Shown one piece after another: positions 3,958 through 21,353 of a stretch of DNA of 21,700 bases. The DNA lies in the IMG/VR virus record IMGVR_UViG_3300037427_001410, positions 1 through 21,700 of that record. One strand, 5' to 3'. The position numbers and the translations under genes were made by a program. The stretch comes from a virus. The stretch's first letter is position 1. Every line of letters begins with the position of its first letter. Below the pieces are notes generated by a model that worked only from the letters and a program-made list of their open reading frames with translations, searched no databases and had not been told where the DNA came from.

Positions 3958-4641
3958 TTAATTTCCCCTCGTCAGGTTGTGAATGTCATCCCATGACATC
4001 TCTGCGGCTTCCTCAACAGTAGTTGGGTAGCCTTCAGGGATACCAAAGGCGACTTCAGTAGCCTTACGAATATCATCATCTTTCTCGGTAAGAGACTTGC
4101 GTAGTTCTGCAAACTCAGCCTTTAGTCCGGCAACATCGACGCGAGCATCATACTCTGCTCTCTCAGCAGTGGACTTCCTAACAGATAGTTCCTCTTGGAA
4201 CCTGTCAGCAAAAGTCTTGCTTAGGTTGTCGTATGCCATTCTCTCTAGTTGCTCGGCCTTGAACGCCTCATATGCCTTCTCGACATTATCGTGCGTCAAG
4301 TTGAGGGTAGTGAAATCACTGTCCTCTAGTCCCTTGCTAACAGAGAGGGCCTTTGGAGTGGACTTTGGGTTTCCGTTAGTAACTACTTCCTCGCCAGCCT
4401 CGTTTCCTTCAGCCTCGGTAGGTGCGTCATCTCCGCCGGGTAGACCTTTCTTCTCTTCGTCCATCTCGTCATCCTCCTTCATCTCCATGTCTTCCATCTC
4501 ATCCTCGGACTCCATTTCGTCGTCGCCCTTGTATGACATGTTTTCCATATCGCTTTCTTCTTCATCTTCCTTGTGGATTTGTCCAACTTGCTTCATCAAA
4601 TCGTTCAACTCCTCAAGTGCTTTTTCCAATTTTTCACTCAT
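3958..4641 (-). CDS. scaffold protein from internal in-frame start
   Basis: An ATG at 4641 inside the protease gene, in frame, is preceded at 7 bases by GGAGGTGA, the strongest ribosome binding site in the window. It would give a separate 227-aa scaffold (MSEKLEKALEELNDL...) containing the acidic stretch, coiled coil and C-terminal MSWDDIH peptide without the protease. Nested scaffold genes of this kind are known from phage lambda (C/Nu3). The site is directly visible; actual use of it is inferred. Confidence 0.6.
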   Translation of the reverse strand: MSEKLEKALEELNDLMKQVGQIHKEDEEESDMENMSYKGDDEMESEDEMEDMEMKEDDEMDEEKKGLPGGDDAPTEAEGNEAGEEVVTNGNPKSTPKALSVSKGLEDSDFTTLNLTHDNVEKAYEAFKAEQLERMAYDNLSKTFADRFQEELSVRKSTAERAEYDARVDVAGLKAEFAELRKSLTEKDDDIRKATEVAFGIPEGYPTTVEEAAEMSWDDIHNLTRGN

Positions 4642-5166
4642 TTTATTTTCACCTCCAACATCTCTTTTCAAAATGTCGAATTTTGCTTCTGGGTTAATTC
4701 CTTTTTCACAGATTGTAACTTCATGTAATTCCAAACGGTCTATCTCGTTGTATTCTCCATGTTCGTCAGATGTTCTCTGCTTCTTAGAAATTGCTTGCCC
4801 TCCTATACTAAATGACCTAAGTGTTCCTTTTCGGATTCCTCTTGAAATTTCTTTTGCCTTCTCTATGTCATCTCTCATTTTGATTACGACATAGAACCCA
4901 ACGTCATCTACTGCGGTCTTGTGTAGATTTCCGTTTTTGTCTCGATATTTCTCGATTACCTCCCCGACTTGAACATTTGAATGGTTTGACATTACATTCC
5001 TGTACTTCTGTTCTCCCATGTATTGCTTTACGGCTTTGTCTAATGCACTAAGAGTAATTAAGTCGTTTTGCTTATCGACCATTTCTATTGACGCATATCC
5101 CCCTATGACTAATCCATCTGATTTTAGAATTGTAAACTCGTTGTTGTTTTCTGCCTTTAGTAGCAT
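3958..5166 (-). CDS. prohead maturation protease fused to scaffold
   Basis: 402 aa from ATG 5166; an in-frame TTG at 5199 would add 11 residues, but a TATA-like box at 5207-5213 favours 5166. Residues 1-170 match the HK97-type prohead serine protease. The histidine lies in NVMSNHSNVQVGEV (H62), the serine in LRSFSIGG (S120), and the family's closing element is ELHEVTICEKGINPEAKF. Residues about 200-245 are an intensely acidic Asp/Glu/Met stretch, followed by a helical coiled-coil region (about 285-370) typical of scaffolding protein. The C-terminus ends MSWDDIHNLTRGN, a peptide shared with other proteins here. The protease should cleave scaffold and capsid termini during head maturation. The scaffold half also has its own internal start. 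Confidence 0.88.
   Translation of the reverse strand: MLLKAENNNEFTILKSDGLVIGGYASIEMVDKQNDLITLSALDKAVKQYMGEQKYRNVMSNHSNVQVGEVIEKYRDKNGNLHKTAVDDVGFYVVIKMRDDIEKAKEISRGIRKGTLRSFSIGGQAISKKQRTSDEHGEYNEIDRLELHEVTICEKGINPEAKFDILKRDVGGENKMSEKLEKALEELNDLMKQVGQIHKEDEEESDMENMSYKGDDEMESEDEMEDMEMKEDDEMDEEKKGLPGGDDAPTEAEGNEAGEEVVTNGNPKSTPKALSVSKGLEDSDFTTLNLTHDNVEKAYEAFKAEQLERMAYDNLSKTFADRFQEELSVRKSTAERAEYDARVDVAGLKAEFAELRKSLTEKDDDIRKATEVAFGIPEGYPTTVEEAAEMSWDDIHNLTRGN
4649..4656 (-). promoter_or_regulatory. internal ribosome binding site for scaffold
   Basis: GGAGGTGA on the minus strand, fully complementary to the 3' end of archaeal 16S rRNA, 7 bases before the in-frame ATG at 4641. It also encodes Gly-Gly-Glu of the fusion protein, in the linker right after the protease domain. 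Confidence 0.6.
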
Positions 5167-5206
5167 ATCTCCTGAGAGTAACACTCCCAAAAATTTCAAC
5201 TCTTAC

Positions 5207-5213
5207 TATTTAA
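5207..5213 (-). promoter_or_regulatory. candidate TATA box for capsid operon
   Basis: TTAAATA on the minus strand lies in an A/T-rich gap between ligase and protease genes. An archaeal start site about 25 bases downstream would fall near 5184, leaving a short leader before ATG 5166. The fit is reasonable, but A/T-rich matches are common by chance. Confidence 0.35.
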
Positions 5214-5216
5214 CAT

Positions 5217-5256
5217 AATATGCAAAATCAATTAGGAAGTTCTAATTTTGCATATT
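5217..5256 (-). promoter_or_regulatory. 12-bp inverted repeat at ligase 3' end
   Basis: Perfect 12-base arms (5217-5228 and 5245-5256, AATATGCAAAAT and its complement) flank the ligase stop codon with a 16-base spacer; three more base pairs can form inside it. It could be a terminator-like hairpin ending the upstream transcript or an operator next to the TATA-like box at 5207-5213. Confidence 0.5.
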
Positions 5257-7819
5257 TATCTTTAGTGATATCCCAAACATTCTCATCAGAATCTAATTCT
5301 AACATATCTTGTTTCTTACCTGTCCACACTACCCAAGACTTCTGTTCATCCAACGGAACCATTCTCACATGGAATCTAGTATCGAACTTGTCTCCCTTGA
5401 TTCTATATTCATGATAGCCATCTCTCTGAACTCCTAATTCGACCTCACCCGAATCTATCTCCTTTCTATGTTCGCCTAAATCCTTGCCGACTATAGCCGG
5501 ATACTTAGCAGACTTTCCAAATAGGTCATAGACATCATCTAGTTCTGTAATGTCAATCATCCAGAAATTCCTAGACTCTCCTAGTTTTAGAATGAAATCC
5601 AAATTCTCATCTTCCCTTAGCATGATACTGAAACTTCCAGAATCAACCTTGGAAACCTCTGGCTCTTCTACGTCCTTCTCCAAGACATCATCCAATGCGG
5701 TGAACTTGTTAGGGTGATGGTATTTGAGACTCTCTTGTTCCTTCAACCAACTCATCAACATATCATCCGAGGAATCAAACACATCAGCAAAGACCTCTGG
5801 ATACTCTTTCTTGGTGAAATCAACTATCTTACCAAATGGAGTTTTCCTGTTATCGTATGTCTCGATGATTTCATTACGAATCGCTATTCTAAGTTCGGAC
5901 CTTCTAGACTTGACAAGTTTCTCCATCTCAGTCTTCCAAACGTCTATGTCGTAGAGCGCATTCTTCGCCATCAGAGAATCACCATTGAACCCGTAGATTG
6001 TGAACCCATCAAATTCGCTCTTCGCGATTATCTCCGCATTGCCGTGTATGCCATCCGTGATGAAGAATCCCTTCTTGACCTTCTTACCATTAGTCTGAGT
6101 AAGCCCACTGACTAACTTGTATGGGTTCAGACTACTGATGGCCTCTCCTGCATCAGATGCTAGAGATTTCCTAGTCTTCGTAGCGAGTTGCTCCAATGTC
6201 TCTACCTTGTCAGATTGGTCGACTTCTGGTATCTCTATGAGTTTGGCAGAGTAAAGGGTAAATCCTTCTTTGTTTTTCTTTACCTCATCCACCTTGACTC
6301 GGACAATACTACCGACATCCACGTTCTCCTTCGTATTCAGTGCCTTGCCAACAGGAAGGTATTCCTTCTCATCATGCTCTGTTGTCTTGTAAGTTCTAGC
6401 AACTTCAGCACTGACTGGCCCAACCCCTAACGAATATGATTTCATACCACTCTTGGTTGTCTTCTTCTCTAGAACAATCACATCAAGGTCAACGAACTTC
6501 TTCCACTTAATCCACTTAGGGTTCTTCCTGTTACCTATGTAATAGGTCGATTCCAAATCCTTGATAATTACTCCCTCTGAAGCAGGTAGTTCCATGATGT
6601 CCTTGGCATACTCACCAACCTCCTTTATCGAATCTGCCATTCTAGTGTCCTTCTTAGATGGGAATGCCAGTTGCTCAGAGGAGTGTTGACTGAACTGATA
6701 GAGAAGAGTATTGATTCTCTCTCGCAATGGCTCACCATGCATGTCATTCCCCTCATGGTGCATGATGTCGAAAACATGCGCTCTTAGTTGTCCTCCTTTC
6801 TTCTTCTTGAATACATGTGTTATGGTGTCTGCCCGATGAAGAGGCTCATCACCATCAAACAAAACTAGTTCTGCATCTAGAATGCAATCTCCGAATTGCT
6901 TCTCCTTTAGTTTCTCTATCTGGTCCTTGCAAGCATCTGAGATATCCTTCTCATTGTAGGAGTATGCCTTGATGCTCTTACCCTTCTTATGGAGTTGTAT
7001 CCGCATTCCATCATACTTCTCTTGGACTAGGTAATCTCCTGAGAACCCCTTGAGGGCCTTCATGTCATCAATCTCAAAAATCCGATACATTGGTTTGTTG
7101 GGTACTATGAAATCAATCTCGGCCTTTTCCTCATCACTCTTCTCTGCTTTTTTTATATCGACTTCCAGAAGGTTGTCCCACTTAGGCTTCTCGTATTCTC
7201 TGAGAAACATATCCTTGAGTGTCTTGAGTGCATTCTTGACTTTGGATTCTATTCTCCTGTTATCCTCGTCTTCCTTGCCATAATGCTCTATGATGTATAG
7301 TGACAAATCATCCTCATCCAAATCCAATCCCATGAAACCATTGGTTATTTCATCCGCATCTAGATTCTTAGTGTCCCATACCTTATCTGGCAATGCCTTG
7401 GAATGTGACCGCAATGCATAGTGCAAGAAGGCAATAAGAACAGATTCGTTCTCTAGCATAGTGGGTATGACATCATCTTCACCGAACTTCTTTGAGAATG
7501 GGTCAGTGACCTTCTCGGACCTGAACCTCATGTCCTTTACCGCTTCAAACAAATTCTTCGCTTCAACGGATTGTGGCTTCTTGGCCCCATCATCGAAAAC
7601 CAACTTCTCATCAATATAGTCCTTCAACTCAGATGAGAAGTCGCTCAGAGAATCATACTTGTCTTTGATATGTTCTACACTATCCGCCCAATCATCAGAA
7701 TACTCCGATGGGTTGTTTCTAGCAGACAGGTATGCGTATCGGACTTTCTCAAAAAAATCCAAGACCTCTTTGGTTAGGTCTTCAGTCTCTTTCTCAAATT
7801 CAAGTCCTGATATGGGCAT
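5228..7819 (-). CDS. ATP-dependent DNA ligase with large N- and C-terminal extensions
   Basis: 863 aa, ATG 7819. The nucleotidyltransferase core is clear: motif I EKYDGMRI with the adenylated lysine K268, DAELV (315-319), motif III VFDIMHHEG (about 349-357), motif IV EGVIIK (415-420) and motif V KWIKWKK (435-441). It is followed by an OB-fold region to about 530 (GSIVRVKVDEV). It should seal nicks in duplex DNA using ATP. The usual archaeal/viral enzyme is about 550-600 aa. Here ~260 residues precede motif I without an obvious match to the standard DNA-binding domain, and ~330 residues follow the OB fold. The last ~130 residues (FSIMLREDENLDFILKL... then KSWVVWTGKK) faintly resemble the LigD phosphoesterase fold but without its histidines; this is tentative. 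Its position between head genes is unusual. Confidence 0.92.
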   Translation of the reverse strand: MPISGLEFEKETEDLTKEVLDFFEKVRYAYLSARNNPSEYSDDWADSVEHIKDKYDSLSDFSSELKDYIDEKLVFDDGAKKPQSVEAKNLFEAVKDMRFRSEKVTDPFSKKFGEDDVIPTMLENESVLIAFLHYALRSHSKALPDKVWDTKNLDADEITNGFMGLDLDEDDLSLYIIEHYGKEDEDNRRIESKVKNALKTLKDMFLREYEKPKWDNLLEVDIKKAEKSDEEKAEIDFIVPNKPMYRIFEIDDMKALKGFSGDYLVQEKYDGMRIQLHKKGKSIKAYSYNEKDISDACKDQIEKLKEKQFGDCILDAELVLFDGDEPLHRADTITHVFKKKKGGQLRAHVFDIMHHEGNDMHGEPLRERINTLLYQFSQHSSEQLAFPSKKDTRMADSIKEVGEYAKDIMELPASEGVIIKDLESTYYIGNRKNPKWIKWKKFVDLDVIVLEKKTTKSGMKSYSLGVGPVSAEVARTYKTTEHDEKEYLPVGKALNTKENVDVGSIVRVKVDEVKKNKEGFTLYSAKLIEIPEVDQSDKVETLEQLATKTRKSLASDAGEAISSLNPYKLVSGLTQTNGKKVKKGFFITDGIHGNAEIIAKSEFDGFTIYGFNGDSLMAKNALYDIDVWKTEMEKLVKSRRSELRIAIRNEIIETYDNRKTPFGKIVDFTKKEYPEVFADVFDSSDDMLMSWLKEQESLKYHHPNKFTALDDVLEKDVEEPEVSKVDSGSFSIMLREDENLDFILKLGESRNFWMIDITELDDVYDLFGKSAKYPAIVGKDLGEHRKEIDSGEVELGVQRDGYHEYRIKGDKFDTRFHVRMVPLDEQKSWVVWTGKKQDMLELDSDENVWDITKDKYAKLELPN

Positions 7820-7836
7820 TCAACAACATGCCCCCC

Positions 7837-8070
7837 CTAGTTCGTGTCACCAGCAAGTCCGTATCCTGAATTGGTGTCATCAGTCGATACTGGGTTCTTC
7901 ACCTTCTCTTCCTTGGGGTTCTTTTTTGGTCGCGTGACCTTCACAGTCTCCCCGTTGACATCTTCCTTGTTCTCAAGGATACCCAGATTCTGCGCTTCCT
8001 GAATTACTGTCTTTGCCTTGTCTATAGTCGTGTGGACAAGCATCTCTTCCTTGCTTATTTTCTCTGGCAT
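7837..8070 (-). CDS. small lysine-rich protein of unknown function
   Basis: 77 aa, ATG 8070 with GGTGATT immediately upstream, 4 bases after the previous stop. The N-terminal half is helical (KISKEEMLVHTTIDKAKTVIQEAQNLG); the rest is basic and apparently disordered, ending GYGLAGDTN. No family recognised. It belongs to a run of four small genes between the 918-aa protein and the ligase, probably structural or accessory head proteins. Confidence 0.65.
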   Translation of the reverse strand: MPEKISKEEMLVHTTIDKAKTVIQEAQNLGILENKEDVNGETVKVTRPKKNPKEEKVKNPVSTDDTNSGYGLAGDTN

Positions 8071-8074
8071 CTAA

Positions 8075-8308
8075 TCACCCCATTGTCTCGACTATCTTGT
8101 GTATGTCTTCCCAATCCATCTTGGATATCACATCGCCCGTAGGCATGTTACTTGGGTTATCGTTCATAGAGGGAGTAGGAGTGTCAGCCACAACGAAGCC
8201 TGACTTCATTAGTAGATTATCATTGTGATATACTGTTTGTTCTAGATTCTTCACTTTGTCTACTAGTTCTTTTAGTAGAATTAACATTTCATTTTGTTCT
8301 TCGCTCAT
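8075..8308 (-). CDS. small coiled-coil protein with C-terminal M-x-W-x-x-I tag
   Basis: 77 aa, ATG 8308 with GGTGG upstream. The N-terminal ~30 residues form a leucine/valine heptad pattern (EMLILLKELVDKVKNLEQTV), likely a coiled coil. A proline/asparagine-rich linker follows, and the protein ends KMDWEDIHKIVETMG. That end closely parallels the scaffold C-terminus (EMSWDDIHNLTRGN), suggesting both bind the same partner. No known family recognised; a mini-scaffold or capsid-associated role is inferred. Confidence 0.7.
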   Translation of the reverse strand: MSEEQNEMLILLKELVDKVKNLEQTVYHNDNLLMKSGFVVADTPTPSMNDNPSNMPTGDVISKMDWEDIHKIVETMG

Positions 8309-8515
8309 TCAATCCACCATCGTATCTAATACTATCATCATGTCTGTTAGTGAGTCCATCAATTTATCAACGCTCTCTTTTGGCATACTTGCAGAAAAGT
8401 TTTCATCGTGGTCTAACAGCCCTTCTAATTTACGAGCGCACTCTGCAATATCATCTCTTTGGCCTGACTCTAAAAAAGCCCCGTCTTCTTCTTTCATTAT
8501 TTTCTTCCAACTCAT
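8309..8515 (-). CDS. small helical protein with N-terminal M-x-W-x-x-I tag
   Basis: 68 aa, ATG 8515 overlapping the previous stop (ATGA). It begins MSWKKIMKEEDGAF, related to the N-termini of the 109-aa and 625-aa proteins. The rest is predicted helical, with a C-terminal stretch ESVDKLMDSLTDMMIVLDTMV that could pack as an amphipathic helix. No family recognised. Confidence 0.68.
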   Translation of the reverse strand: MSWKKIMKEEDGAFLESGQRDDIAECARKLEGLLDHDENFSASMPKESVDKLMDSLTDMMIVLDTMVD

Positions 8516-8841
8516 TTCTTCTTGCCCCCTTTCTTCTTTGGATAAATCTGTTCTCTAATTTGTAAGTAAAGTGTTTCGTAGTCCTTTCTTAGTTCTGCGG
8601 CTGATGCCATGATATCTAAGTTCTTCTCCTCAAAGCCAGTGACTTTCTTCTGTAATGACTTACTTGACTTCACGAATTCAACACCACTCAATTCGTCTAT
8701 CAAATCAGAGAGCCTCGTCATATCCTTGCCGAACATCTCAGTTGGTTGAGAGGCCTGTAGCAGTTTCTTGATTTTCTTCTTCTGCTTGGGATTCATCTTA
8801 TCTAGAACAGAATCGGCTTTGAGAATATCCTGCCAATTCAT
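8512..8841 (-). CDS. 109-aa helical protein with N-terminal M-x-W-x-x-I tag
   Basis: ATG 8841, with GGTGTGG upstream. Starts MNWQDILKADSVLDKM, almost the same as the 625-aa protein (MSWQTILKADSLLKAM). The body is helical and basic, ending in a lysine/glycine tail (PKKKGGKKK) that could contact DNA. It lies directly after the 918-aa gene and overlaps the next small gene by 4 bases. Not recognised as a known family. Confidence 0.7.
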   Translation of the reverse strand: MNWQDILKADSVLDKMNPKQKKKIKKLLQASQPTEMFGKDMTRLSDLIDELSGVEFVKSSKSLQKKVTGFEEKNLDIMASAAELRKDYETLYLQIREQIYPKKKGGKKK

Positions 8842-8862
8842 ACTCGTCCCACACCTATCTCG

Positions 8863-11619
8863 CTAATTACTCTTCTTGTTACTCTTCTCTTTGAGTTGTT
8901 GCATTGCCAAATTCTCTAGTTCCTCAATTGGCATCTTAGGATTCTCCTCTCTCAACTCTGCTATAATCTTCTTTTTTCTTTCTGATATGGCCTTTGGTGT
9001 AAAGTCAGTTTTCTTTCTGCGTCTTCGTTTTGGCCCACTCTCAAATTCAATTGGGTCACCTTCTTCAGCATATTCTTCTGGATTATCATATATCGCTTGC
9101 AATTCATCCGCATGCTTTGTAATTGTCTTAACCAATTCGTTAAACTCATCGATTGAGGAATTTTTATATTTTCCTTCCACTTCTTTCTCAGCCTTCTCAA
9201 TAGAACCATCCAAATCGAAATCTGCTTTCTTAGCGTGTGTCTGTAGCGAATCTTCCAGTGAACCTCTGAACGGGGATTTCTTATCAGCCACATTTTCTTT
9301 ATCCTTTGAGAAGGATTCATGGATTTTCTGGGTTTTCTCAAATATGGGTGCTACTCTTGATTTAGTTTTCTCAATGGCTCTATCCCATTGTTTCTGTCTA
9401 CGCTTCTCTTCCTTTTCCTCATGTGCTTGCAACTCTCGGAAGTCCATACTTGACAAGTCTATTTTTGGAATTTTCAAGGCTTTCTTGAGGTCAAGTATTG
9501 CTCTATCCAGTTGGTTGTTGAGAACTTTGAATTCACGAAGTGCCTTTTGTCCCACCGAGTTTTGAATGCTCACGTTGTAGTAGGCAACAAGATTAGCAAC
9601 AGTTTCTAGTTGTGAATGTATTATCTGTTCTCCACCTTTGACTTTTCTACGCTTATCAAGCAAGACCTTGATGTTGTCCTCTATCTCATCCTCTAAGAAA
9701 ATCAAGTTCTTTCTAACTGTATCATAATTGGGGTCATTCTGAATGAGTCTGTCAATGGTGAATTTTCTCTCCAATTTATCTTGGTCTTTCTTAGATTCCT
9801 GTAGGAAGTTCACCTTTCTTCTAGCAACATCCAACTCCTTGATTTTTCTCGGTGGCCTCATCTCGTCCTCACCAGAGATTTCTATCAAGTCCTTCATCAT
9901 CTCAGTTGCCTCTCGCCCGCGAGCATCTTCCCTAATGACTGGATTCGTCCATGAACCACTAACCCAAGTACTGTCTTTAGTAATGAATAAATCAGTTAAA
10001 CCATCATCTTCATCTGGCAGTTTGCCTTTGAAGAGTAGTTTTCTCAAATTCTCCCTTAGTTTATTTGGGATTTCCTCATATGCATTAACTGCTATTCTCT
10101 GCTTCTTAACAAGTTTAGCACTCTTAATATCACCAGAGTCCGGTGTGGCTTCATATTCAGCCATTCTATTCAGGGCTTGTTTAATTTTGTTAAGGGACTC
10201 CTGCCTCGTCTTACCCTTAACGTTGAATTCTATGAGTATGTCTCTTCCCTGATTGAAATCCTCACGCAAGTCCTTATCCTTTATCTCAGTCTCCTTGGTG
10301 ATTATACTGATGCCCTTCACTCCGAATTCCTTACTCAGATACTTCTTGATTTCGGTTATCGCCTTTCCTTTACTGTCGATTTCAACGATATCATAGTGGC
10401 GTTTCAACCACTTATCTCTTTTCTTGTTATAGAGTGCGCGTAGCAAATCGTTATACTCTTCAACCTCATTCTTCAATAGGATTTCATCTTGGTTTTTGTC
10501 TCTAGCATCTACGAACTTCTTACGCAAGCCTCTATCCCTTACCCAACCACCGATAACAGTATATGCTCTTTGGAAGGTCTTTTCACCATCCTTTTCCTCT
10601 GTTAATTCCCCACCTGTTGGTAGCGTAGACCCTGATAGATTGAGAAATATCAATTTCGCGACTCTATCTCTCTTCTCATCCACTTCGTCTTGAGGGGGAG
10701 AGAGTTGCTTACGACTCATCTCCTCAAATAGTTCCTTCATTGACTCATTCTTAACGAGCATCTCTGCTAGTTTCTTAGATTGGTATTGGGATTTCAACTT
10801 CTTAGAATTGTATACCTCTGGATTCCTAAACAACTCACTCAGTTTCTTCTCAAAATCCTCAACCACAACTGCACTGTAGTTAAGATTTTTTTCGCCGTTA
10901 GCATCCTTGGGGCCTTCTTTAATTGCATCTTCTACAGCAGTAGGAAACTCTACGCCAAAAGTAGTAACATAATCATCCCAAAGTTCTTTTTCGTTCTCAA
11001 ACTCGTCTTTGAACTCTTGATGCTTTTTCTTTCGCTCTTTGAAATCCTCGGCAGATTCTCCCTTCTCCTTCTTAGGTACTTTCAGAGCCTCCTTGGAATA
11101 CTTGTCCTTGTATGCAATATCCATGACACCATCCTTATCCTCAAGGTAATCATAGTCCTTGGCCTTCACGGTTGGAAATTTCTTATCCGCGCCTTTAGTA
11201 TGCTTAACCCACGCTTTCATCAATTGGGTTCTACTGATGACATCATCATAGTCGATGGTAACATCGTTCATAGTCAAGTCAACGGCATCAGGTTCGTCAT
11301 CAAACAATTTGTCTTGGGTAAGAGTCAATTTACTACGGGACGGATACTCTATCTCTTTCTCAATCTTATCTTTCAACTTGTCATACTTCTTTTGGAATTC
11401 AGGGGGTATTCTCACCCTACCACTGATAATCTCATTCATGAATGGGGCAGACTTTCCTGCGATGTAATCCCTAGTCCAAGTATCCATTCTCTTTTTTAGT
11501 TCAGCATCGAATTCCTTTCTCTTTGCACCTGACAACTTTTTGATTTTTGCTCTGATGTTTTCATTCAACCTTTCCTTCTCTTCTTCCTGCTCTTCAATGG
11601 TGGCCTTCAGAAGTAGCAT
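8863..11619 (-). CDS. very large charged coiled-coil head protein of unknown function
   Basis: 918 aa from ATG 11619, chosen because GGTGAG is 5 bases upstream; an in-frame GTG at 11628 is an alternative. It has extreme Lys/Glu content with long helical, coiled-coil-like stretches throughout. Some possibly globular sections lie in between (around residues 430-480 KGISIITKETEIKD... and 545-580 LFITKDSTWVSGSW), with a basic cluster KRRRRKK near the C-terminus. No enzymatic motif or membrane segment is visible. It follows portal genes and precedes small tagged proteins. Candidate roles are an internal head or DNA-ejection protein or a large scaffold-like organiser. Tape-measure is less likely, since tail genes are absent and it lies within the head region. 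Confidence 0.7.
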   Translation of the reverse strand: MLLLKATIEEQEEEKERLNENIRAKIKKLSGAKRKEFDAELKKRMDTWTRDYIAGKSAPFMNEIISGRVRIPPEFQKKYDKLKDKIEKEIEYPSRSKLTLTQDKLFDDEPDAVDLTMNDVTIDYDDVISRTQLMKAWVKHTKGADKKFPTVKAKDYDYLEDKDGVMDIAYKDKYSKEALKVPKKEKGESAEDFKERKKKHQEFKDEFENEKELWDDYVTTFGVEFPTAVEDAIKEGPKDANGEKNLNYSAVVVEDFEKKLSELFRNPEVYNSKKLKSQYQSKKLAEMLVKNESMKELFEEMSRKQLSPPQDEVDEKRDRVAKLIFLNLSGSTLPTGGELTEEKDGEKTFQRAYTVIGGWVRDRGLRKKFVDARDKNQDEILLKNEVEEYNDLLRALYNKKRDKWLKRHYDIVEIDSKGKAITEIKKYLSKEFGVKGISIITKETEIKDKDLREDFNQGRDILIEFNVKGKTRQESLNKIKQALNRMAEYEATPDSGDIKSAKLVKKQRIAVNAYEEIPNKLRENLRKLLFKGKLPDEDDGLTDLFITKDSTWVSGSWTNPVIREDARGREATEMMKDLIEISGEDEMRPPRKIKELDVARRKVNFLQESKKDQDKLERKFTIDRLIQNDPNYDTVRKNLIFLEDEIEDNIKVLLDKRRKVKGGEQIIHSQLETVANLVAYYNVSIQNSVGQKALREFKVLNNQLDRAILDLKKALKIPKIDLSSMDFRELQAHEEKEEKRRQKQWDRAIEKTKSRVAPIFEKTQKIHESFSKDKENVADKKSPFRGSLEDSLQTHAKKADFDLDGSIEKAEKEVEGKYKNSSIDEFNELVKTITKHADELQAIYDNPEEYAEEGDPIEFESGPKRRRRKKTDFTPKAISERKKKIIAELREENPKMPIEELENLAMQQLKEKSNKKSN

Positions 11620-11628
11620 ATGTCTCAC

Positions 11629-11856
11629 CTAGAATGGAATGTTTTCTTTTCGGTTCTTAGATTTCTTAGGTAAGATGATAACATCAGGGATGTCAGCAGA
11701 TGTAGGTATCTTCTTCTCTACTGTCGTACTCTTATCGACACCAGCAACGGAATAGTCCCTATTCTTCTTCACCTTGTTTACTTGCTCTCTTCGTTCTGCT
11801 ATTCTAGCCGCCTTCAATTCTCTTTCCAACTGCCTTACACTTTTTTCTTCACTCAT
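11629..11856 (-). CDS. 75-aa basic protein with N-terminal coiled coil
   Basis: ATG 11856 behind GGAGG at 6 bases. The N-terminal half is a charged helix (SVRQLERELKAARIAERREQVNKV); the C-terminal half is basic and proline-containing. It overlaps the preceding 44-aa ORF by 8 bases. Its stop (TAG) forms part of the ribosome binding site region of the 918-aa gene. No family recognised. Confidence 0.68.
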   Translation of the reverse strand: MSEEKSVRQLERELKAARIAERREQVNKVKKNRDYSVAGVDKSTTVEKKIPTSADIPDVIILPKKSKNRKENIPF

Positions 11857-11983
11857 TTTTCTTCCTCCATTTTTTGCTTTCTTTACTCATCTTTAGAAAT
11901 TCTTCTAGTCTCTTATCTGTCTCTGCATTCAATTTGTCAATCTCTTCTTTCCATTTCCTTGCCGTTTCAAGAAGGTCGCTCAA
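11849..11983 (-). CDS. 44-aa coiled-coil micro-ORF after portal
   Basis: Starts with TTG at 11983 overlapping the portal stop by 4 bases (TTGA) and ends inside the start of the next gene. The translation is a highly charged single helix with hydrophobic heptad positions (LLETARKWKEEIDKLNAE, then TDKRLEEFLKMSKESKKW). It fills the only gap between portal and the 75-aa gene exactly, and its composition matches its neighbours, which argues that it is real. The non-ATG start and the lack of a strong binding site reduce certainty. Confidence 0.6.
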   Translation of the reverse strand: MSDLLETARKWKEEIDKLNAETDKRLEEFLKMSKESKKWRKKNE

Positions 11984-13638
11984 CCTACCCGCCTCTCTGT
12001 TCGCCTATCGACATTACGATTACCTGCTTCCTTTGGTAATCCTGAGAATCGCTTGTCTGGACCCTCACTCATACTAGGTTTGTTTCTGCCTTTCACAGTA
12101 GCGGGTTTTCCTGCTTGCTCGGCGGTTGGTCTTGTTCCGGCTTCCATCATTTGACCTAATTGTGATTGGTCGATATCCGTACCTGCGTATGGGTCCAACT
12201 CAAATTCACCTTCTGCACCTTCCTGTGCATTAGGGTCTTCCTTTGGTTCTGGTTTGTAGTAAGTGAATCTACCGTCATCATCCATATCTACCTCAAAGCC
12301 TAGATTCTTGATAGCCCCAGCAACGTTGACTTCTATCTCTCGCTTCCTCAATTTTGCAATCTCATCCTCCTCCTCTGATGGGGGCAACTTGAGATTCCAA
12401 TCACTGATGCCAAACTCTAGAGTCATGAATGGGAAGACGTAGTTATTCCAAATCGTCTGTGCCATCTCAACTGCTCTGTTGGTTACGAGTATTTGCATGC
12501 CCTCGTTATTCAACCCACCACTAGCAGAGTTGTCTGCCATGAAGATTTTACTGACTCCGTAGAATGCGGCAATCCTATCCCGCAAGTCTTCCTTGACAGC
12601 AATGTAGTCCATCTCCTTCAAGGTATTCATGAAGTTAATCCACTCAACAGAACCCTTTCCATTCTCTGCCTCTATTCCCATAACGGGAATGAAGTGGGGG
12701 TCTTGCTCAATCTTCTCTTTGACCCCTCGCCAAAATGACTTCATAGAATCGATGTTCCTAGTTTGCACTGCTAACAATCCCCTTGGCATTCTTGCCTTGG
12801 TGTATGATGAATTGACGTAATTCTCCATAGCCATTAGAGTAGTTACGTTATTCCACAATGTGATTATGGGTGATGTACCATAGAGCCTAGAAGGTGAGTA
12901 CTTGCTGAAGTGCAATACTTCTCCCTTGACGAAATACTGTTCCTCTCCATTCACCCTATTGACGTAGTGAACAGGGAACATGGCACTACCACAAACCTCA
13001 CAATTCTCATGCTTGTCCTGTGCGAGTTGGTTTCTATGGCGTAGGCATGTGAATCCCTTGATGCCCCTTTGCCCAACGTCATCTGTGTATAGGTGGAAGG
13101 TAACAGGGTCACCTCTGTATATCTCCTTGATTCTATGCATCTTGATGCAGTTATTGTTATCCAAGTAGTATTCCTTTACCATAACCAAGTAAGCATCATC
13201 GATTATGTTCAAGTCATCTTCCAATTCTTTCAATACATCAATGAATAGTTGCTCAGACTTGTTGACATGTTGCTCTAAGAATTGATGAGCGTATTTGAGT
13301 TGGGCCTTGTCTGGCTTTCTCAAATCAGTAGAACCACAGTCTGCACATTCCTTAACTGGACTCTGATGCTTGTTCCCGCAGGAATTGCATTGGGCTACGA
13401 ACGCCTCTTCCCAGATGTATCCTCTCCTGAATATCTCCTGCTTCAACTGAGTAGTACAAGTTCTAACGATAGTAGATTGCTTTGCTAGGTTGTAGATGAT
13501 GGGAGTGGTTAGGAAATATGACGTATCCTTTTCCTGAATCCCCGGATTGAATATGGTTCTATCCTCTGGTTTCGGTGTGGTATCCCTAAACAGCCTTGCA
13601 ATTGAAAATCTTCTCTTCTTTGGTTCTGGTTCTACCAT
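11980..13638 (-). CDS. portal protein with zinc-ribbon-like insertions
   Basis: 552 aa, ATG 13638 overlapping the upstream stop by one base (TAATG), with GGAGTTGTGG upstream. Portal hallmarks are VLHFSKYSPSRLYGTSPI (about 241-258), the long helix with NNVTTLMAMENYVNSSY, and RIAAFYGVSKIFM followed by GLNNEGMQ (about 355-383), as in HK97/SPP1-type portals. Unusually, two cysteine clusters interrupt the N-terminal half: C84/C87/C98/C101 (CNSC...CADC) and C198, H201, C213/C216 (CLRH...CEVC), both suitable for zinc binding. The portal dodecamer is the DNA gate at the head vertex and docks the terminase. The C-terminal ~100 residues are acidic then basic and probably flexible. Confidence 0.88.
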   Translation of the reverse strand: MVEPEPKKRRFSIARLFRDTTPKPEDRTIFNPGIQEKDTSYFLTTPIIYNLAKQSTIVRTCTTQLKQEIFRRGYIWEEAFVAQCNSCGNKHQSPVKECADCGSTDLRKPDKAQLKYAHQFLEQHVNKSEQLFIDVLKELEDDLNIIDDAYLVMVKEYYLDNNNCIKMHRIKEIYRGDPVTFHLYTDDVGQRGIKGFTCLRHRNQLAQDKHENCEVCGSAMFPVHYVNRVNGEEQYFVKGEVLHFSKYSPSRLYGTSPIITLWNNVTTLMAMENYVNSSYTKARMPRGLLAVQTRNIDSMKSFWRGVKEKIEQDPHFIPVMGIEAENGKGSVEWINFMNTLKEMDYIAVKEDLRDRIAAFYGVSKIFMADNSASGGLNNEGMQILVTNRAVEMAQTIWNNYVFPFMTLEFGISDWNLKLPPSEEEDEIAKLRKREIEVNVAGAIKNLGFEVDMDDDGRFTYYKPEPKEDPNAQEGAEGEFELDPYAGTDIDQSQLGQMMEAGTRPTAEQAGKPATVKGRNKPSMSEGPDKRFSGLPKEAGNRNVDRRTERRVG

Positions 13639-14963: not shown

Positions 14964-14971
14964 TTTCTCAC

Positions 14972-16414
14972 CTAATAAAAGTTCATGCCAACTACTCCGT
15001 CGAGAGGATTGTTAATTGTTGTTGCGGGGTCATCGAAAATCTCCATATCATCTAATAACATGAAAACCTCCCCTTGGTGTTGCGATGCCGCGTTAGCCAG
15101 AGCGAGGCTCATTACCATGTCATCGTGCGCCCCCACACCTTCAAATCTACCAGCACTAGTTATTGAGAACATAGACAATTCCTCAATCAGCATGTTACTG
15201 ACCCTCTTACTCGCAGTGTCGCCATATGGGAAATTCATTTTCTGATTCTCAATGTTCATTTGCAATGCCAGAATGATTTCCTGTTTGTTCTTCCTAGTGG
15301 TATTGAAATCTCTCACATTCAAATCTGATACGCTTCTCAATTCCTGTGTGAATGCCTTGGCAAACGTGTTAGTCTCGTAGAGAATTTCTTCGGGTTGGAA
15401 TATCTGACCAATGAGTTTAATCTTCTCGATGTTCTCCCTGAACTCTACGTTCTTGGCTCTATCAACATGAACAATTGTCTTGTTCTTATTCTCATCTACT
15501 TCCAGCACAGTAATTACATTGTAGTCCCCATCCGTGGAGATAGCAGGGTCGACTCCCACATAGTATCTGTATCCCTTGTCTCGACGGTTTCCTAATTTCA
15601 AAACAAAGTCCTTGTTCTTACAAGCCTGAACGAAATCTGGATTGAACAATGCAGTACCAGTGGAGATTGGAACACATAGGTATTCTCTTGTAAACTTGAG
15701 AGAACCAATCTCGGCCTTTCTTTGCATGAGAGCATCATACGCCCAACGCTCAGGCCAGAGTGGTTCGTTGAGTGAATTGAGACAGGGGTACTTCTTCACT
15801 GAATATGCCTCGTTCTCTTCCAACTGTGCGAATATATCGGTGTAGGTAAACGGAGTTCCAATCATTCTTAGATTTGAGGTGTGGTGAAGTGTGGGTATCA
15901 TATCACCGAAGAACCAATCAGTGACCTTTTGAATTCCTGAAATGCTGAACTCCTTCAAAGGGTCGTCAATGATAATCTCCTGCGGGTGAAGACCACGAAT
16001 CTGAGAACCAACTGAACGCTCAAGTATTGCATTACCATTGGTCAGTTGTATGTTCCCAATAGCCCAACCCCTAGTGGGTTTGTATTTCTTCAATGCTGGA
16101 TGGTTGAAGTACCTGTCAATCTCTCGCATGTGAACCAGAGTCTGCTTTTGGTTCGATGAGATGTATAGCATCTGAAATGGAGGCTCTTGGAATACTAGGT
16201 TCCATACTACCCAACAATGCATGAAGACTGATTTACCGTGGTCCCTACTACAGATGATAACGGTCCTATCCGTGGTATGCATAGAATCCAACCACTCTTG
16301 CATGTATGCGGGAAACATCATACCGAGTACGTTCTTGAAGAAGTATGGGAACGATGTCTTTGACATCTCCATATCCATATCGGACATGAAATCCATGCCC
16401 TCTAGTTCTGTCAT
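14972..16414 (-). CDS. terL: large terminase subunit (packaging ATPase-nuclease)
   Basis: 480 aa from ATG 16414, which overlaps the previous stop as ATGA; an in-frame TTG at 16435 is less likely. Walker A is CSRDHGKS (residues 55-62), Walker B EIIIDD (146-151) and the coupling motif MIGTPFT (184-190). The C-terminal RNase H-like nuclease shows YVGVDPA (D289), YETN (E347) and the closing AHDDMVMSLALA (D431/D432). All acidic metal-binding positions are present, so the motor should be active. It translocates viral DNA into the procapsid through the portal and cuts the concatemer. No clear small terminase subunit is adjacent. Confidence 0.95.
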   Translation of the reverse strand: MTELEGMDFMSDMDMEMSKTSFPYFFKNVLGMMFPAYMQEWLDSMHTTDRTVIICSRDHGKSVFMHCWVVWNLVFQEPPFQMLYISSNQKQTLVHMREIDRYFNHPALKKYKPTRGWAIGNIQLTNGNAILERSVGSQIRGLHPQEIIIDDPLKEFSISGIQKVTDWFFGDMIPTLHHTSNLRMIGTPFTYTDIFAQLEENEAYSVKKYPCLNSLNEPLWPERWAYDALMQRKAEIGSLKFTREYLCVPISTGTALFNPDFVQACKNKDFVLKLGNRRDKGYRYYVGVDPAISTDGDYNVITVLEVDENKNKTIVHVDRAKNVEFRENIEKIKLIGQIFQPEEILYETNTFAKAFTQELRSVSDLNVRDFNTTRKNKQEIILALQMNIENQKMNFPYGDTASKRVSNMLIEELSMFSITSAGRFEGVGAHDDMVMSLALANAASQHQGEVFMLLDDMEIFDDPATTINNPLDGVVGMNFY

Positions 16415-16971
16415 ACCTTCAACCCCATGAACCAACTATCTGCATATCTGACTAACAACTTCCTGACTGCTTCTGAAGAACTTCCCTTTGCATGCAGACG
16501 CTCGATGGTATCAACAACATCTTCTGGTACATCCTCCTGACCGACAACAGTACCATCCTCATCGAATTGAACATCAGAGAAACCAGCACCATTGAAGATG
16601 GATTTTGATTTTTTATTTGCGAATATCACGAATGGCTTGTCACCATGCATGCTAACGACATGATTGGCAACTGCTTCGCCCGCTCCCCCAGTTTCTTCCT
16701 CCGGCAATCCAGTCTCAATACCGTAACTCGCTAACCCAGCACCGAGATACACGTTCTTCCATTCGCCCACCCCATGAACTGCGATTGGCTTGTTCGACTC
16801 CGTGTGATAGGCAACCCAATATTGAGGGTTCTTCATCTGTTCAAATGGTGAACCTACCAAGAGGTTGTATCTCTCTGGCCTTCTCTTGTAGTATATCCCA
16901 TGCTTGTCGAATATGTCATAGACATCTGCTTCGGAGTATGGTCCTCTGAAGTCATTGTCTGAGTATGCCAT
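16411..16971 (-). CDS. GNAT-like acetyltransferase-fold protein
   Basis: 186 aa, ATG 16971 behind GGTGAG. The arrangement of residues ~50-131 follows a GNAT fold: strands WVAYHT and KNVYLGAGLAS, a GAGEAVANHV turn-helix where acetyl-CoA pyrophosphate would bind (about 96-105), a strand PFVIFAN, and KSKSIFNGAGF, like the conserved 'N..A..LYE..GF' end. Possible activity is acyl transfer from acetyl-CoA to a protein or small molecule. The C-terminal ~45 residues are an extra helical tail. It overlaps the terminase start by four bases, so it is co-translated with it. The fold assignment is from pattern only. Confidence 0.55.
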   Translation of the reverse strand: MAYSDNDFRGPYSEADVYDIFDKHGIYYKRRPERYNLLVGSPFEQMKNPQYWVAYHTESNKPIAVHGVGEWKNVYLGAGLASYGIETGLPEEETGGAGEAVANHVVSMHGDKPFVIFANKKSKSIFNGAGFSDVQFDEDGTVVGQEDVPEDVVDTIERLHAKGSSSEAVRKLLVRYADSWFMGLKV

Positions 16972-16975
16972 TTAC

Positions 16976-19474
16976 TCACCGGAAATTGCCCTTCAAGAAA
17001 TAGACACTTTCTGGTGATACCCCATGCTTAGTCGCAATATCATCCATAGAGCCGAAGTCACTTACGATATTCTCGACTTCTATGGCTGAGACATCAAGGT
17101 TGTAATCTCTCTTCAGTACTGTCATTGCAGTGTTAACATGTTCAAAGTTGTCTAATTTGGAAGTGTTATAGTAAACTGGTTTGCCGAGCATTTTCCTAAT
17201 GGAGTCATGGGCCTGTAGCAAATCCAATTCCACATCGGATTTGATAACATTCATTGATGTCTGTGCGGCCTTCAACCTATCAATAGCAGTACCAAATGCT
17301 GAGATGCTCTCTGCGTCATCCAATGCTCTGTACGAGTCCTCTCTTCTTATTATGTGACTTATGACAGAACGAACTGGCCCCACATCTCCGCCTTCCCAAT
17401 CTTCTGCTGGCTCATCAAATATCACAACATCATCTAGTGAAACATCATTCAATTCCAATGTGGACTTGAAGTAGTCACCTAGTTCTTCCTTACCCTCTTC
17501 CCCTATGGTGGAATCAGGACTGACACTGAATACCTCTGGAATCAAGAAGGCATGTAATTGCTCTAGTTTGGTTTTGAAAGCATCTATGTTTGACTTGGCA
17601 TCAGGGGATGTAGCCTCCTCTAGTAACTCAGCGATTTCCTCAACTATGCTGATATCGATGAAAGCGGCATCTTGGAGTTCTTGATTTATGATGGAGAGAT
17701 ACGCATTCTCCGTAATGTCCGAGTTCTTGCTAGTTATGATTGCAAATAGTCTCTCTGTGTTTGAGTCAATATCAGTTCTGAAATCCAACTTGTCTGCGAA
17801 TGGGTAGTGGCTACTAGTGAGTGGTATGAAGAAGAACTCACTGATTTGCTTAACCAATTCATCAAACTTAGCCTTAGCACGACTTGGTATGTTACCGGGT
17901 ACACCTTCAAATGGAGCCAAGTTTGCTAACGCATCTCTAATTGACCCGGTTGGTTCCTCAACCATCACTACCTTAGCAACAGTATCTAAGAATTTGGCAA
18001 TGAGTTTCTTCCTCTGGTCTATCTCACCAGCATCATGTCGTGAGGCCAAGGATGATAGGACATCATTCATCGGAAGATACAAGTTTCCTTCTGGTGCATT
18101 ACTGGCAGTCTTAGACAATTCCTCCAAGTAATCTATTATTGTCTCATCGAAATCCAAATCATACAGGTATGTGATGCCCTTCTTGAACGCCCGCCTGAAT
18201 TCACTTATCTCATCTTCTAGCATTACTGGGTCATCAAACAAATCTACCTTCTCAACTATGTATTTGTATAGCGGGTCAACCTTGCTCAGTTGTTCCCTAG
18301 AATCTTCAACTGCCTCTTGCAATTCAGCAAACTCTGCCATCTCACTTTCCATTTCAGGATTTTCTTCAAAGCCAATTCCAGTTCTCTCAGCATCAGTCCT
18401 AATTTGCTGGTCAGTGCCTCTCCCTGAGAATCCTTGGTCGGTTTCTATATTTCTACGGTCTACTCTTTGAAGGTCTTCCAAATCATCCACTACCTTGTCA
18501 AGCGAACTAAAAACCCTGCTTATTTGCGATGGGAATCTAACTTCGGAGTCCTCTTTGTCAAATTCGTAGACATAGTTCAAATCCTTACCTGCATATTCCT
18601 TCAAGGAACTCAAGGAATCCATATCAAGAGCAATCACATCATCCAAGGCATCCTGAAAATCACCATACTTGTCATTGATGTCTTCCCAATACCGATATAC
18701 GTCCTTCCTATCTTCTGTGTATCTCAGATTCTTGTCACCAGAGATGGTTCCAGCAGAGAACGTGAACAGTTCTTTCTTATCACTCATCCCCGCAGTCTCA
18801 TCTAGTTTTCTCATAAATGGACGAACTGCTTGTTCATATTCTGAAGAAACTGTTTGCAGTAGAGGTAGGAGTTTTGCTTTGTTATCCTGAAACTTCTTAC
18901 CTTTACCCATAGCGAGAGTAATGTCATACTTCTCTGGAATTCCCTTACCTTCATTGAACATCCTACCTATTACTTCACTAGAAAGTACTCTCCCATTCAC
19001 CCGAAAATTATTCCTGATTTTAGTTGCAAGTTGAAGATACCCAGAACTCTTGGGTGTCTTCGCTTCACCAAACTCAACTAGAATCTGACTGAGCATCATA
19101 TTGGTGTCATCACCGAAAGACTCCTTGAATCCTTCAGGCATCCTCTCAACCATTTCCTCTGTTTTTTGGTCTTGAGTCTTAAGTTGTGAGATAGAGGGTT
19201 GAATCAATGTCTTACCATCCTTGTTCATCAAGATTGTATCCTCGCCTTCCTTGGGTGAGGAACTGTTCTTCTCTAGGTATGATTTCAGATAAGAGCCGTT
19301 CTGAGCAAACTCCGCAGTTAGCCTCGTCTTCCATTGGTTACTCTCTTCTCTACGTTGAACAGAATTCGTTACTCCACTTTCTTTCAAGAGTTTGTTAATC
19401 ATTCTCCGGCCATCTCTAGCACTTGAGACAAAGGCCTCAAAGACCTCTTGCTTTTGACTCTCATCTAGATTCAT
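16976..19474 (-). CDS. large acidic protein ending in a helix-turn-helix-like segment
   Basis: 832 aa, ATG 19474 with GGTGA 6 bases upstream. Mostly helical and acidic, with no membrane segment and no enzyme motif that I recognise. The last ~33 residues (about 800-832) contain DFGSMDDIATKHGVSPESVY, then FLKGNFR. This has the spacing of a helix-turn-helix (IA.K.GVS...V), as in many DNA-binding phage proteins. Located two genes before the large terminase, it could help packaging-site recognition or be an internal virion protein. The function is unresolved. Confidence 0.68.
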   Translation of the reverse strand: MNLDESQKQEVFEAFVSSARDGRRMINKLLKESGVTNSVQRREESNQWKTRLTAEFAQNGSYLKSYLEKNSSSPKEGEDTILMNKDGKTLIQPSISQLKTQDQKTEEMVERMPEGFKESFGDDTNMMLSQILVEFGEAKTPKSSGYLQLATKIRNNFRVNGRVLSSEVIGRMFNEGKGIPEKYDITLAMGKGKKFQDNKAKLLPLLQTVSSEYEQAVRPFMRKLDETAGMSDKKELFTFSAGTISGDKNLRYTEDRKDVYRYWEDINDKYGDFQDALDDVIALDMDSLSSLKEYAGKDLNYVYEFDKEDSEVRFPSQISRVFSSLDKVVDDLEDLQRVDRRNIETDQGFSGRGTDQQIRTDAERTGIGFEENPEMESEMAEFAELQEAVEDSREQLSKVDPLYKYIVEKVDLFDDPVMLEDEISEFRRAFKKGITYLYDLDFDETIIDYLEELSKTASNAPEGNLYLPMNDVLSSLASRHDAGEIDQRKKLIAKFLDTVAKVVMVEEPTGSIRDALANLAPFEGVPGNIPSRAKAKFDELVKQISEFFFIPLTSSHYPFADKLDFRTDIDSNTERLFAIITSKNSDITENAYLSIINQELQDAAFIDISIVEEIAELLEEATSPDAKSNIDAFKTKLEQLHAFLIPEVFSVSPDSTIGEEGKEELGDYFKSTLELNDVSLDDVVIFDEPAEDWEGGDVGPVRSVISHIIRREDSYRALDDAESISAFGTAIDRLKAAQTSMNVIKSDVELDLLQAHDSIRKMLGKPVYYNTSKLDNFEHVNTAMTVLKRDYNLDVSAIEVENIVSDFGSMDDIATKHGVSPESVYFLKGNFR

Positions 19475-19475
19475 A

Positions 19476-21353
19476 TCAGTTCACCAAGTTAGTACGGACA
19501 TAGCCTCTGAATGTCTTCATTTTAGGATTGTCCTTAACATTTTCGTCATCATCTGTTAGGTTAGCAATTTTTTCAATTGCACTACTAACATAGGAAAAGA
19601 ATAGTTCTCTTATCTTTGGGTAGTCCCGTTTTAGCACAATTTCCAAATTGTCTTCATCGGACTCTTCACCTGAATTAATATATTTTTTCGTCCTATCATA
19701 AATTGCCCCATCACCAGTACCATAGATTTCTTCTATACTAATCAACAATGACACAAGCCCCTCATAGGTGACTGTGTTTCCCACGGCTAACTTTTTTGCT
19801 TCTGGTCGCCAGAGTGTCTGGAACTGGTTCTTCGCTCCCTCCTTCCTTCCCACATCAAAAGATGTGAGAAGGGCATCTACTCCTTCTTCAACAGATTGTG
19901 AGAACAATTTCTTCATCCTATCCAACCTGCTCTGTAACTCTTCCTTGCTACCAGTGAGGTCTACGACGAAGAAGGATGATGATGGTTTTGATTCTGGTTT
20001 TCTTGGGTCATCTCTTGTCCTATCAGTCTCTCCGGCGTCAGTTGTTACCTTGCCTCTCTGAAATCCTACAAGGTCATCCTCAATATCATCAAGCAAATCA
20101 GAGGCTCCGGGTTTCAACTCATCCCCATCTAACAGATGTGAGAATCTCCGCCTCAAGTGCCAATCATTCACTTGGTTTCCCTTGACATCAGTTCCTTTCT
20201 CACCATCAGCCAACTCACTGTACTCCTGCTCGGTGAGGTAATACTGACCTGCTTCTATGATGGCATCTAGATGCTTAACGTCATCTGTCTTACCCTTCTT
20301 CACAAGTGCATTCCTGAAGGTCAACAACCTGTTTCTGACATTATCATCCCTACCACCATAGACTTGAGATTTTCTGTAGTCCTCAAGGACGGATGGAATA
20401 TCCTTTGCACCTACTTCGGCAACGTCAACAACATCCTCTGTCTCAGTTTCCCTATCTGCTTCCTGTAGTATGGACTGTATCCTACCCTCACCAACTGCCT
20501 TGGAGCCTCCCGAAATTGGGAAAGTGTCTATGTTGTCTGTCCTGATGAATGCCTGTAATGTCGCTGGTACTCTTGCCCTGCCAACCCCACCGAATAAACT
20601 AGTGAAGTCAGTCCCATCCATGTTATCCTTACGGCTTGGCGCAATGAACCTCTCAAACTTCTTCACCTTGAAGCCAGTCTCTAGATAGTTAATGACATCA
20701 TGTGGGGTCAATGGGTCTTTTGGAGTATAATCAGTCTTCTCTGCTTTAGCCTTCCTCGCAAACTCAGAGTCGACATTGGCAAGCAACTCTACAAGCCTCT
20801 CGTTGTTCTCAGATTGCTTGGCGGCGGCGTAGAACTCGTCATCGATTACCTGTCTCAATTGATTCTTGAATCTCTCAGTACCTTTCTCAAGCATAGGCAT
20901 GAGAGCAGAGTCATCTCCCGCTTTGAACTTCTCAATCGCACTGAGCAGGTTCGGTGAAATCTTGTCTCGCTTCTCTCCCTCTGGTCTTGCAATCTCAGAC
21001 ATCAACTCGTTGAAGAATCCCAATGCTGGTTGTCGGACGTTCTTGTAGTTCCTGTAGTTGAAACCCGGCTTGCCCTCATGTAGTTCATGGAAGTCCTCCT
21101 CGTCCATTTCCATTATGTCCTTGAGGCTATTCAGAAGTCTCCTAGTCTTTGAGCGGTCCTCCATGCTCAATAGGTGTTCCTTGAGATTCTCCTTGGTAGT
21201 GGGTTCTCTGAATTCCTTGAAGGATGCCGATGGAGAGACTCCCACTATCAAATCGAATACCTTAGCCCTTCGATTCTTAGCACCTTTCATTTTGATTGGC
21301 ATAGCCTTAAGCAGACTATCCGCTTTCAGAATAGTCTGCCAAGACATAATCAT
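19476..21353 (-). CDS. 625-aa protein with N-terminal M-x-W-x-x-I tag, function unknown
   Basis: ATG 21353 overlaps the upstream stop (ATGA); a second in-frame ATG at 21347 would begin exactly at MSWQTILKADSLLKAM, so that start is equally plausible. The body is helical and charged, with a serine/proline-rich hinge around residues 455-465 and a possible globular C-terminal part. No family or catalytic motif recognised. The N-terminal peptide nearly duplicates that of the 109-aa protein encoded 12 kb downstream in the operon. Likely an internal or head-associated virion protein. Confidence 0.7.
   Translation of the reverse strand: MIMSWQTILKADSLLKAMPIKMKGAKNRRAKVFDLIVGVSPSASFKEFREPTTKENLKEHLLSMEDRSKTRRLLNSLKDIMEMDEEDFHELHEGKPGFNYRNYKNVRQPALGFFNELMSEIARPEGEKRDKISPNLLSAIEKFKAGDDSALMPMLEKGTERFKNQLRQVIDDEFYAAAKQSENNERLVELLANVDSEFARKAKAEKTDYTPKDPLTPHDVINYLETGFKVKKFERFIAPSRKDNMDGTDFTSLFGGVGRARVPATLQAFIRTDNIDTFPISGGSKAVGEGRIQSILQEADRETETEDVVDVAEVGAKDIPSVLEDYRKSQVYGGRDDNVRNRLLTFRNALVKKGKTDDVKHLDAIIEAGQYYLTEQEYSELADGEKGTDVKGNQVNDWHLRRRFSHLLDGDELKPGASDLLDDIEDDLVGFQRGKVTTDAGETDRTRDDPRKPESKPSSSFFVVDLTGSKEELQSRLDRMKKLFSQSVEEGVDALLTSFDVGRKEGAKNQFQTLWRPEAKKLAVGNTVTYEGLVSLLISIEEIYGTGDGAIYDRTKKYINSGEESDEDNLEIVLKRDYPKIRELFFSYVSSAIEKIANLTDDDENVKDNPKMKTFRGYVRTNLVN

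Follow-up and report, generated by a model that had tools for sequence, protein, structure and literature searches.

A short peptide, in its N-terminal form an octapeptide close to M-S-W-x-D-I-L-K, recurs strictly at the ends of proteins encoded by head-side genes in a group of tailed viruses; its Trp and Ile are conserved, every scaffold that we examined carries it, and selection acts on the peptide itself. We consider it probable that this tag is a capsid-targeting sequence of a large group of marine magrovirus-like tailed viruses, which docks in the manner of a scaffold and is possibly cleaved after Lys8, data from virion proteomics, binding assays or structures being as yet lacking. What the tag docks to, and that its carriers are packaged, cleaved and ejected, is inferred, as is the host.

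The window (the whole stretch of 21,700 nucleotides analysed here, from IMG/VR record IMGVR_UViG_3300037427_001410) is, judging from its predicted products, the head module of a tailed virus, with terminase, portal, S78 protease-scaffold and SU10-type capsid genes. The genes and tags discussed below are the following:

2558..3943, minus strand: major capsid protein, SU10 type (Pfam PF17236, E = 2.8e-08; PHROG major head protein)
3958..5199, minus strand: Peptidase_S78 prohead protease with C-terminal scaffold part (Pfam PF04586, E = 7.8e-11; PHROG head maturation protease)
3961..3999, minus strand: C-terminal tag MSWDDIHNLTRGN of the prohead protease-scaffold (gene 3958-5199)
8078..8119, minus strand: C-terminal tag MDWEDIHKIVETMG of a 77-aa coiled-coil-like protein (gene 8075-8308)
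8492..8515, minus strand: N-terminal tag MSWKKIMK of a 68-aa protein (gene 8309-8515)
8818..8841, minus strand: N-terminal tag MNWQDILK of a 109-aa protein (gene 8512-8841)
8863..11628, minus strand: 921-aa protein starting MLLLKA, without Trp, encoded between the genes of the 75-aa and 109-aa proteins (the 921-aa slot)
11980..13638, minus strand: portal protein (PHROG portal, E = 1.4e-63), the query for finding relatives
14972..16435, minus strand: terminase large subunit (PHROG terminase, E = 1.3e-54)
21324..21347, minus strand: N-terminal tag MSWQTILK of a 623/625-aa protein (gene 19476-21353, with the 832-aa gene next downstream)

The ATG of MSWQTILK is at 21347, two codons inside the longest ORF, which starts at 21353; the likely start of the protease-scaffold gene is the ATG at 5166. 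An earlier note on this DNA had reported five terminal copies on otherwise unrelated proteins. All five are present in the places that it gave, all on the minus strand, and no similarity outside the tag was seen among their carriers. The note had treated them as one motif: a shared terminal peptide there is, but in two sub-types, an N-terminal one (ILK) and a C-terminal one (I-H/N). Similarly, what it called the scaffold does bear a C-terminal tag, but the protein is a Peptidase_S78 prohead protease whose scaffold part lies at its C-terminus.

Among the other genes of the window, the 863-aa protein at 5228-7819 has an ATP-dependent DNA-ligase-like core. In relatives its gene is flanked by the small tagged genes on one side and the protease gene on the other, an odd place for a ligase, and a separate ligase of ~513 aa is also encoded on the opposite strand of their genomes. 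The 441-aa ORF between portal and terminase (13638-14963) contains AAFIDSDGYI, which resembles the LAGLIDADG of homing endonucleases, and has no Pfam match. The 832-aa family (16976-19474) is variable except for a conserved helix-turn-helix-like segment at its end (KHGVSPESVYFLKGNFR), and perhaps has a small-terminase-like role. The protein at 2-631 has a P-loop of GATRAGKTT type and is kept downstream of the capsid gene in relatives (MSVMAGFAIL... starts). The 75-aa protein near the portal (11629-11856) has a conserved KENIPF-type terminal peptide in most relatives, of unknown use.

A portal search of IMG/VR returned 45 relatives, in which an ORF scan gave 305 terminal candidates; the consensus of the N-terminal form, in them and in 7 long relative genomes, is M-[STN]-W-[EKQF]-[DN]-I-[LI]-K. 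Collecting every complete ORF with M.W..[ILVM][ILVMF][KRN] near its start yielded 667 distinct proteins, which fall into 356 sequence clusters (251 of them singletons), with the tag Met near the ORF start (a median of 6 open codons upstream) and roughly 7-18 tagged proteins per genome. The terminal motif proposed in the earlier note thus recurs in relatives, and one mark of a T4-type mechanism, a short N-terminal peptide common to unrelated proteins, is met.

With just five copies in the window, chance likeness of short sequences could have been suspected. However, the back-translated pattern matched 133 times in 14 whole relatives, on one strand per record, against 1 match of the reversed pattern, and in a viral contig collection a strict DNA pattern matched at least 120 stretches and its reversed counterpart 4; together with the strand and position counts given below, these controls refute chance, to which we attach virtually no credence. 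The same DNA pattern gave 62 isolated matches in cellular genomes (257 Gb). Poseidoniales is named in none of the titles of these matches, the share of that group in the collection not having been counted, and on these grounds mimicry of a host peptide was set aside. Apart from such isolated matches, the tag is specific to viruses in the collections scanned.

The earlier note had recognised that internal copies as frequent as terminal ones would refute a terminal signal. In late-strand proteins (~187,000 residues), W..[ILV][ILV]K occurs 183 times at the N-terminus and 20 times internally, so that this refutation fails. At the C-terminus, 4 copies of W..ILK stand against the 20 internal ones (p = 0.08), an enrichment that is merely suggestive.

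The profile of the tag, built from one representative per cluster, has S/T/N at position 2, W at 3, E/K/Q/F at 4, D/N at 5, I/V at 6, L/I/V at 7 and, in 98% of representatives, K at 8. Position 9 is without preference; conservation ends abruptly past Lys8, as expected for a detachable tag. Since part of this set came from a pattern scan, the profile was repeated on portal-found relatives with M-x-W as the sole requirement, and the full tag was found in 169 of 207 proteins, most of the others being near variants (for example ILVK or DTLK). An alignment of 150 representatives has essentially MSWxxILK alone in common.

A reused 5' leader DNA, or constraints on translation start, might produce such a pattern without any function of the peptide, and the ribosome-site-like signal common upstream of the tag, as well as the preference for the codon AGT at position 2, would be in keeping with this. 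Yet the wobble positions of the tag codons vary and the upstream DNA contains little besides that signal, so that selection acts on the peptide and not on a DNA leader. Genes on the opposite strand are without the tag, and the sister motif at C-termini, remote from any start, comes near to refuting a leader on its own. Taking also the strand and position counts into account, we rejected this explanation as very improbable.

These counts place the tag on the head side of the late strand. In the 7 long genomes it is found on 90 of 454 late-strand ORFs and on none of 473 ORFs of the opposite strand (Fisher, 8e-31), which encodes PolB, an ATP ligase, a UvrD helicase and a TFIIB-type zinc ribbon. 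The tag is also unevenly distributed about the capsid gene: 98 of 297 late ORFs carry it on the upstream side and 2 of 137 on the downstream side (1.6e-16), where the block of tail genes lies. As the ORFs were called mechanically, the totals contain some spurious ORFs, on both sides of the comparison. Presence of the motif in non-structural genes, which the earlier note had named as a refutation, is therefore not what we find, and a second property of a T4-type mechanism, restriction to head assembly genes as opposed to tail or replication genes, is met by the strand and capsid-side counts.

It is conceivable that what the tag recruits is not the capsid but a host factor, some machine of late expression or a different site of viral assembly, and that its location in the head region reflects nothing more than common late timing. 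The partner is indeed unidentified and the cargo diverse, and the carriers include a DnaJ-type zinc-finger family and HExxH proteins. We nevertheless find this improbable, because late tail genes on the same strand are nearly without the tag, the prohead scaffold always has the sister form, and cellular genomes yield only isolated matches.

Every protease-scaffold examined terminates in the sister form, [SD]W-x-[DE]-I-[HN], as does a companion of ~78 aa, the counterpart in relatives of the 77-aa protein of the window. In an alignment of 36 proteases, W and I/V are each kept in 35 of the 35 rows that reach the C-terminus, amid a variable region, and a wider search found W in 53 of 53 distinct scaffolds. 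All 48 copies of this sub-type lie within the last 18 residues, with 0 elsewhere. Loss of these residues in homologues had been the remaining refutation put forward in the earlier note; W and I/V/L are kept. The same protease was recovered from 7 of 9 further multi-tag records; the remaining two, without a protease match, are perhaps fragments. One 184,733-base record (G024, that of L110) contains two complete protease-scaffold genes ~91 kb apart, and may represent two related genomes joined in assembly.

In protease-scaffold fusions of the herpesvirus type, the protease domain comes first and the scaffold last, with a short hydrophobic C-terminal end that binds the capsid; we know of no system of this type in which the end motif of the scaffold is reused on cargo. 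Residues S/T/N/D before a Trp, with D/E/N three residues on, fit a helix capping box. Structure models give a weak hint that the tag forms a separate short helix: a separate helix is predicted at residues 3-8 of the 109-aa protein, and in the protease-scaffold a long predicted helix (292-373) is followed by a short one from the tag Trp, both with low confidence (mean pLDDT 63 and 47, respectively).

The near-invariance of Lys8 and the lack of conservation after it also raise the possibility that the tag is mainly a recognition and cleavage signal of the prohead protease (ILK-x, cut before x), the proteins entering the head in some other way and then being trimmed. In HK97, the model for S78 proteases, the substrate is a capsid protein whose 103 N-terminal residues form a scaffold part that is removed (PMC10275583); residue 103 is Lys, followed by Ser104. 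The protease and the 921-aa slot, moreover, have [ILM]LK near position 8 without Trp. Against this, conservation covers the Trp and its N-cap residue as well as the Lys, the C-terminal forms of the scaffold and of the 77-aa protein retain W and I without ILK, and cleavage would be of no benefit to the C-terminal ILK copies. Four C-terminal W..ILK copies keep the Lys although a cut there would not free the protein, an argument against reading Lys8 as a cleavage site alone. We thus regard a tag that serves mainly for cleavage as unlikely. Since the C-terminal form of the scaffold is without the LK ending, the two forms of the tag may differ in their binding sites.

Most of the proteases have [ILM]L[KRQ][AST] ~8 residues in, without Trp, which recalls the N-terminal cleavage site of T4 gp21 itself. 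An inner F-x-ILKS at the N-terminus of the protease was considered as a second cleavage site and dismissed; being invariant and running into the conserved domain start GGYAS, it was read as part of the protease domain.

Few of the tagged representatives match any Pfam or PHROG family. Those that could be typed include PAP2-type phosphatases, several unrelated HExxH proteins, DnaJ-like zinc fingers, a DUF6321 protein and Lys-rich proteins; the PAP2 phosphatase and the HExxH proteins look enzyme-like and are plausible as injected cargo. In the 109-aa family W3 is invariant in 27 homologues, and three members (L034, L038 and L083) have a long insert, of variable length, directly after the tag, which a separable docking peptide would tolerate. 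The insert has D-x-DGDG-type residues resembling a calcium-binding loop. The 921-aa slot carries an N-terminal tag in one virus type, MSFMDILK in others and a C-terminal W..ILK in two; its occupants were compared by position, their homology being unproven. A sequence search of relatives gave no homologue of the 68-aa protein and only one of the 625-aa protein, which was for this reason matched across viruses mainly by gene position. Its positional counterparts are mostly tagged (MSWQNILK, MAWESLLK, MSWVSILK).

In phage T4, a protein can be directed into the head by its first ten residues alone, of which 4 and 7 serve targeting and 8 and 10 processing (PMC9026906), and the internal proteins of T-even phages are diverse defence proteins with the targeting sequence alone in common (PMC3012670). 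The tag resembles the T4 peptides (IPII, IPIII and the related IPI propeptide; PMC9026906, PMC3012670, PMC9958956) in comprising ~8-10 N-terminal residues on diverse, fast-evolving proteins, in its two key targeting residues at i, i+3 (4/7 in T4, W3/I6 here), in a last residue that is possibly the protease cut, and in the location of its genes in the head core set. It differs in the number of tagged proteins per genome, a few in T4, in its occurrence also at C-termini, with a sister tag on the scaffold itself, and in its carriers, viruses of archaea by inference and without experiment. The protease here is an S78 enzyme with Lys, while T4 gp21 has a Glu site, and membership by descent, which would require a gp21-type protease and a T4-like propeptide, is not met. 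We take the motif to be unrelated to the T4 targeting sequence, although no alignment was made; together with the S78 protease, this makes the tag an analogue of the T4 system and not a member of its family.

Other phages offer partial parallels. In P1 DarB, an antirestriction protein that is injected, a 30-residue N-terminal signal suffices for entry into the head, but it has been shown on one protein and is not an octapeptide common to many (PMC9024508). Ejection proteins of SPN3US and other giant phages have N-terminal propeptides removed by a protease, two of them identical at the N-terminus, but mostly of more than 100 residues and without a short universal tag (PMC5694885).

HVTV-1 and HCTV-5 (Druskaviridae) have the same terminase-portal-protease-capsid order as the window, with homologous portal and protease. 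In HVTV-1 the W..ILK tag is absent from the termini of the head-region proteins checked. Between 16703 and 25491 of that virus (L204), gp113, gp115 (annotated zeta toxin) and gp116 have a similar VY..SP.EAPE-type segment near an end, possibly a shared peptide of its own. The viruses studied here combine a halovirus-related head module (the portal matches haloviruses), archaeal replication genes and a genome near 90 kb (71-97 kb in relatives). On this gene content and published traits they are probably magrovirus-like archaeal tailed viruses, and a Poseidoniales (MGII) host is probable by inference from the same traits (PMC10160649). No named magrovirus record was among the phage-collection matches. 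A description of the motif was not found in the magrovirus literature searched, which is weak evidence, as many journals were not covered; as far as we could find, peptide-addressed head loading is known from phage T4 and has not been described for archaeal viruses.

The T4-like spacing of W3 and I6, the position of Lys8 at the expected cut and Lys103 of HK97 lead us to infer capsid targeting, with cleavage after Lys8 as a possibility. The proposal of the earlier note, a procapsid sorting signal like that of T4, is supported as the best reading by the late strand, the head side, the terminal position and the retained W and I, and remains an inference. The unrestricted residue 9, the two tagged ORFs downstream of the capsid gene and the absence of the tag from the haloarchaeal relative HVTV-1, despite its homologous portal and protease, speak against it. 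Under capsid targeting, M-S-W-x-D-I-L-K would form a short helix that caps itself, with S/T/N/D as N-cap and D/E/N at N3, and that presents Trp3, Ile6 and Leu7 together on one side. With this side it would dock in the growing procapsid, most simply where the protease-scaffold's own C-terminal S/D-W-x-D/E-I-H/N helix binds, be that on the capsid protein or on the core of the scaffold; the proposed partner is the SU10-type capsid protein. An exposed terminal tag would thereby bring about co-assembly of its protein into the interior of the head, either as cargo or as a core protein, and the S78 protease may cut after Lys8, leaving the cargo free for ejection with the DNA.

A broader version of capsid targeting, which we put forward only tentatively and with somewhat less than even confidence, is that the tag is a universal address, usable at either end and copying the capsid-binding helix of the scaffold, that loads ~10-20 exchangeable orphan proteins per head for injection. 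The cargo would comprise phosphatases, putative metallopeptidases, and basic and zinc-finger proteins, and the tag alone would serve as a cargo detector for uncultured viruses.

If capsid targeting is correct, hundreds of orphan genes in abundant uncultured marine viruses would gain a function, and peptide-addressed head loading would exist in viruses beyond T4 and P1. The tag would then provide a sequence-only detector of probable injected proteins, and hence of candidate counter-defence factors, as well as an 8-residue loading tag that is testable by co-assembly without the uncultured host.
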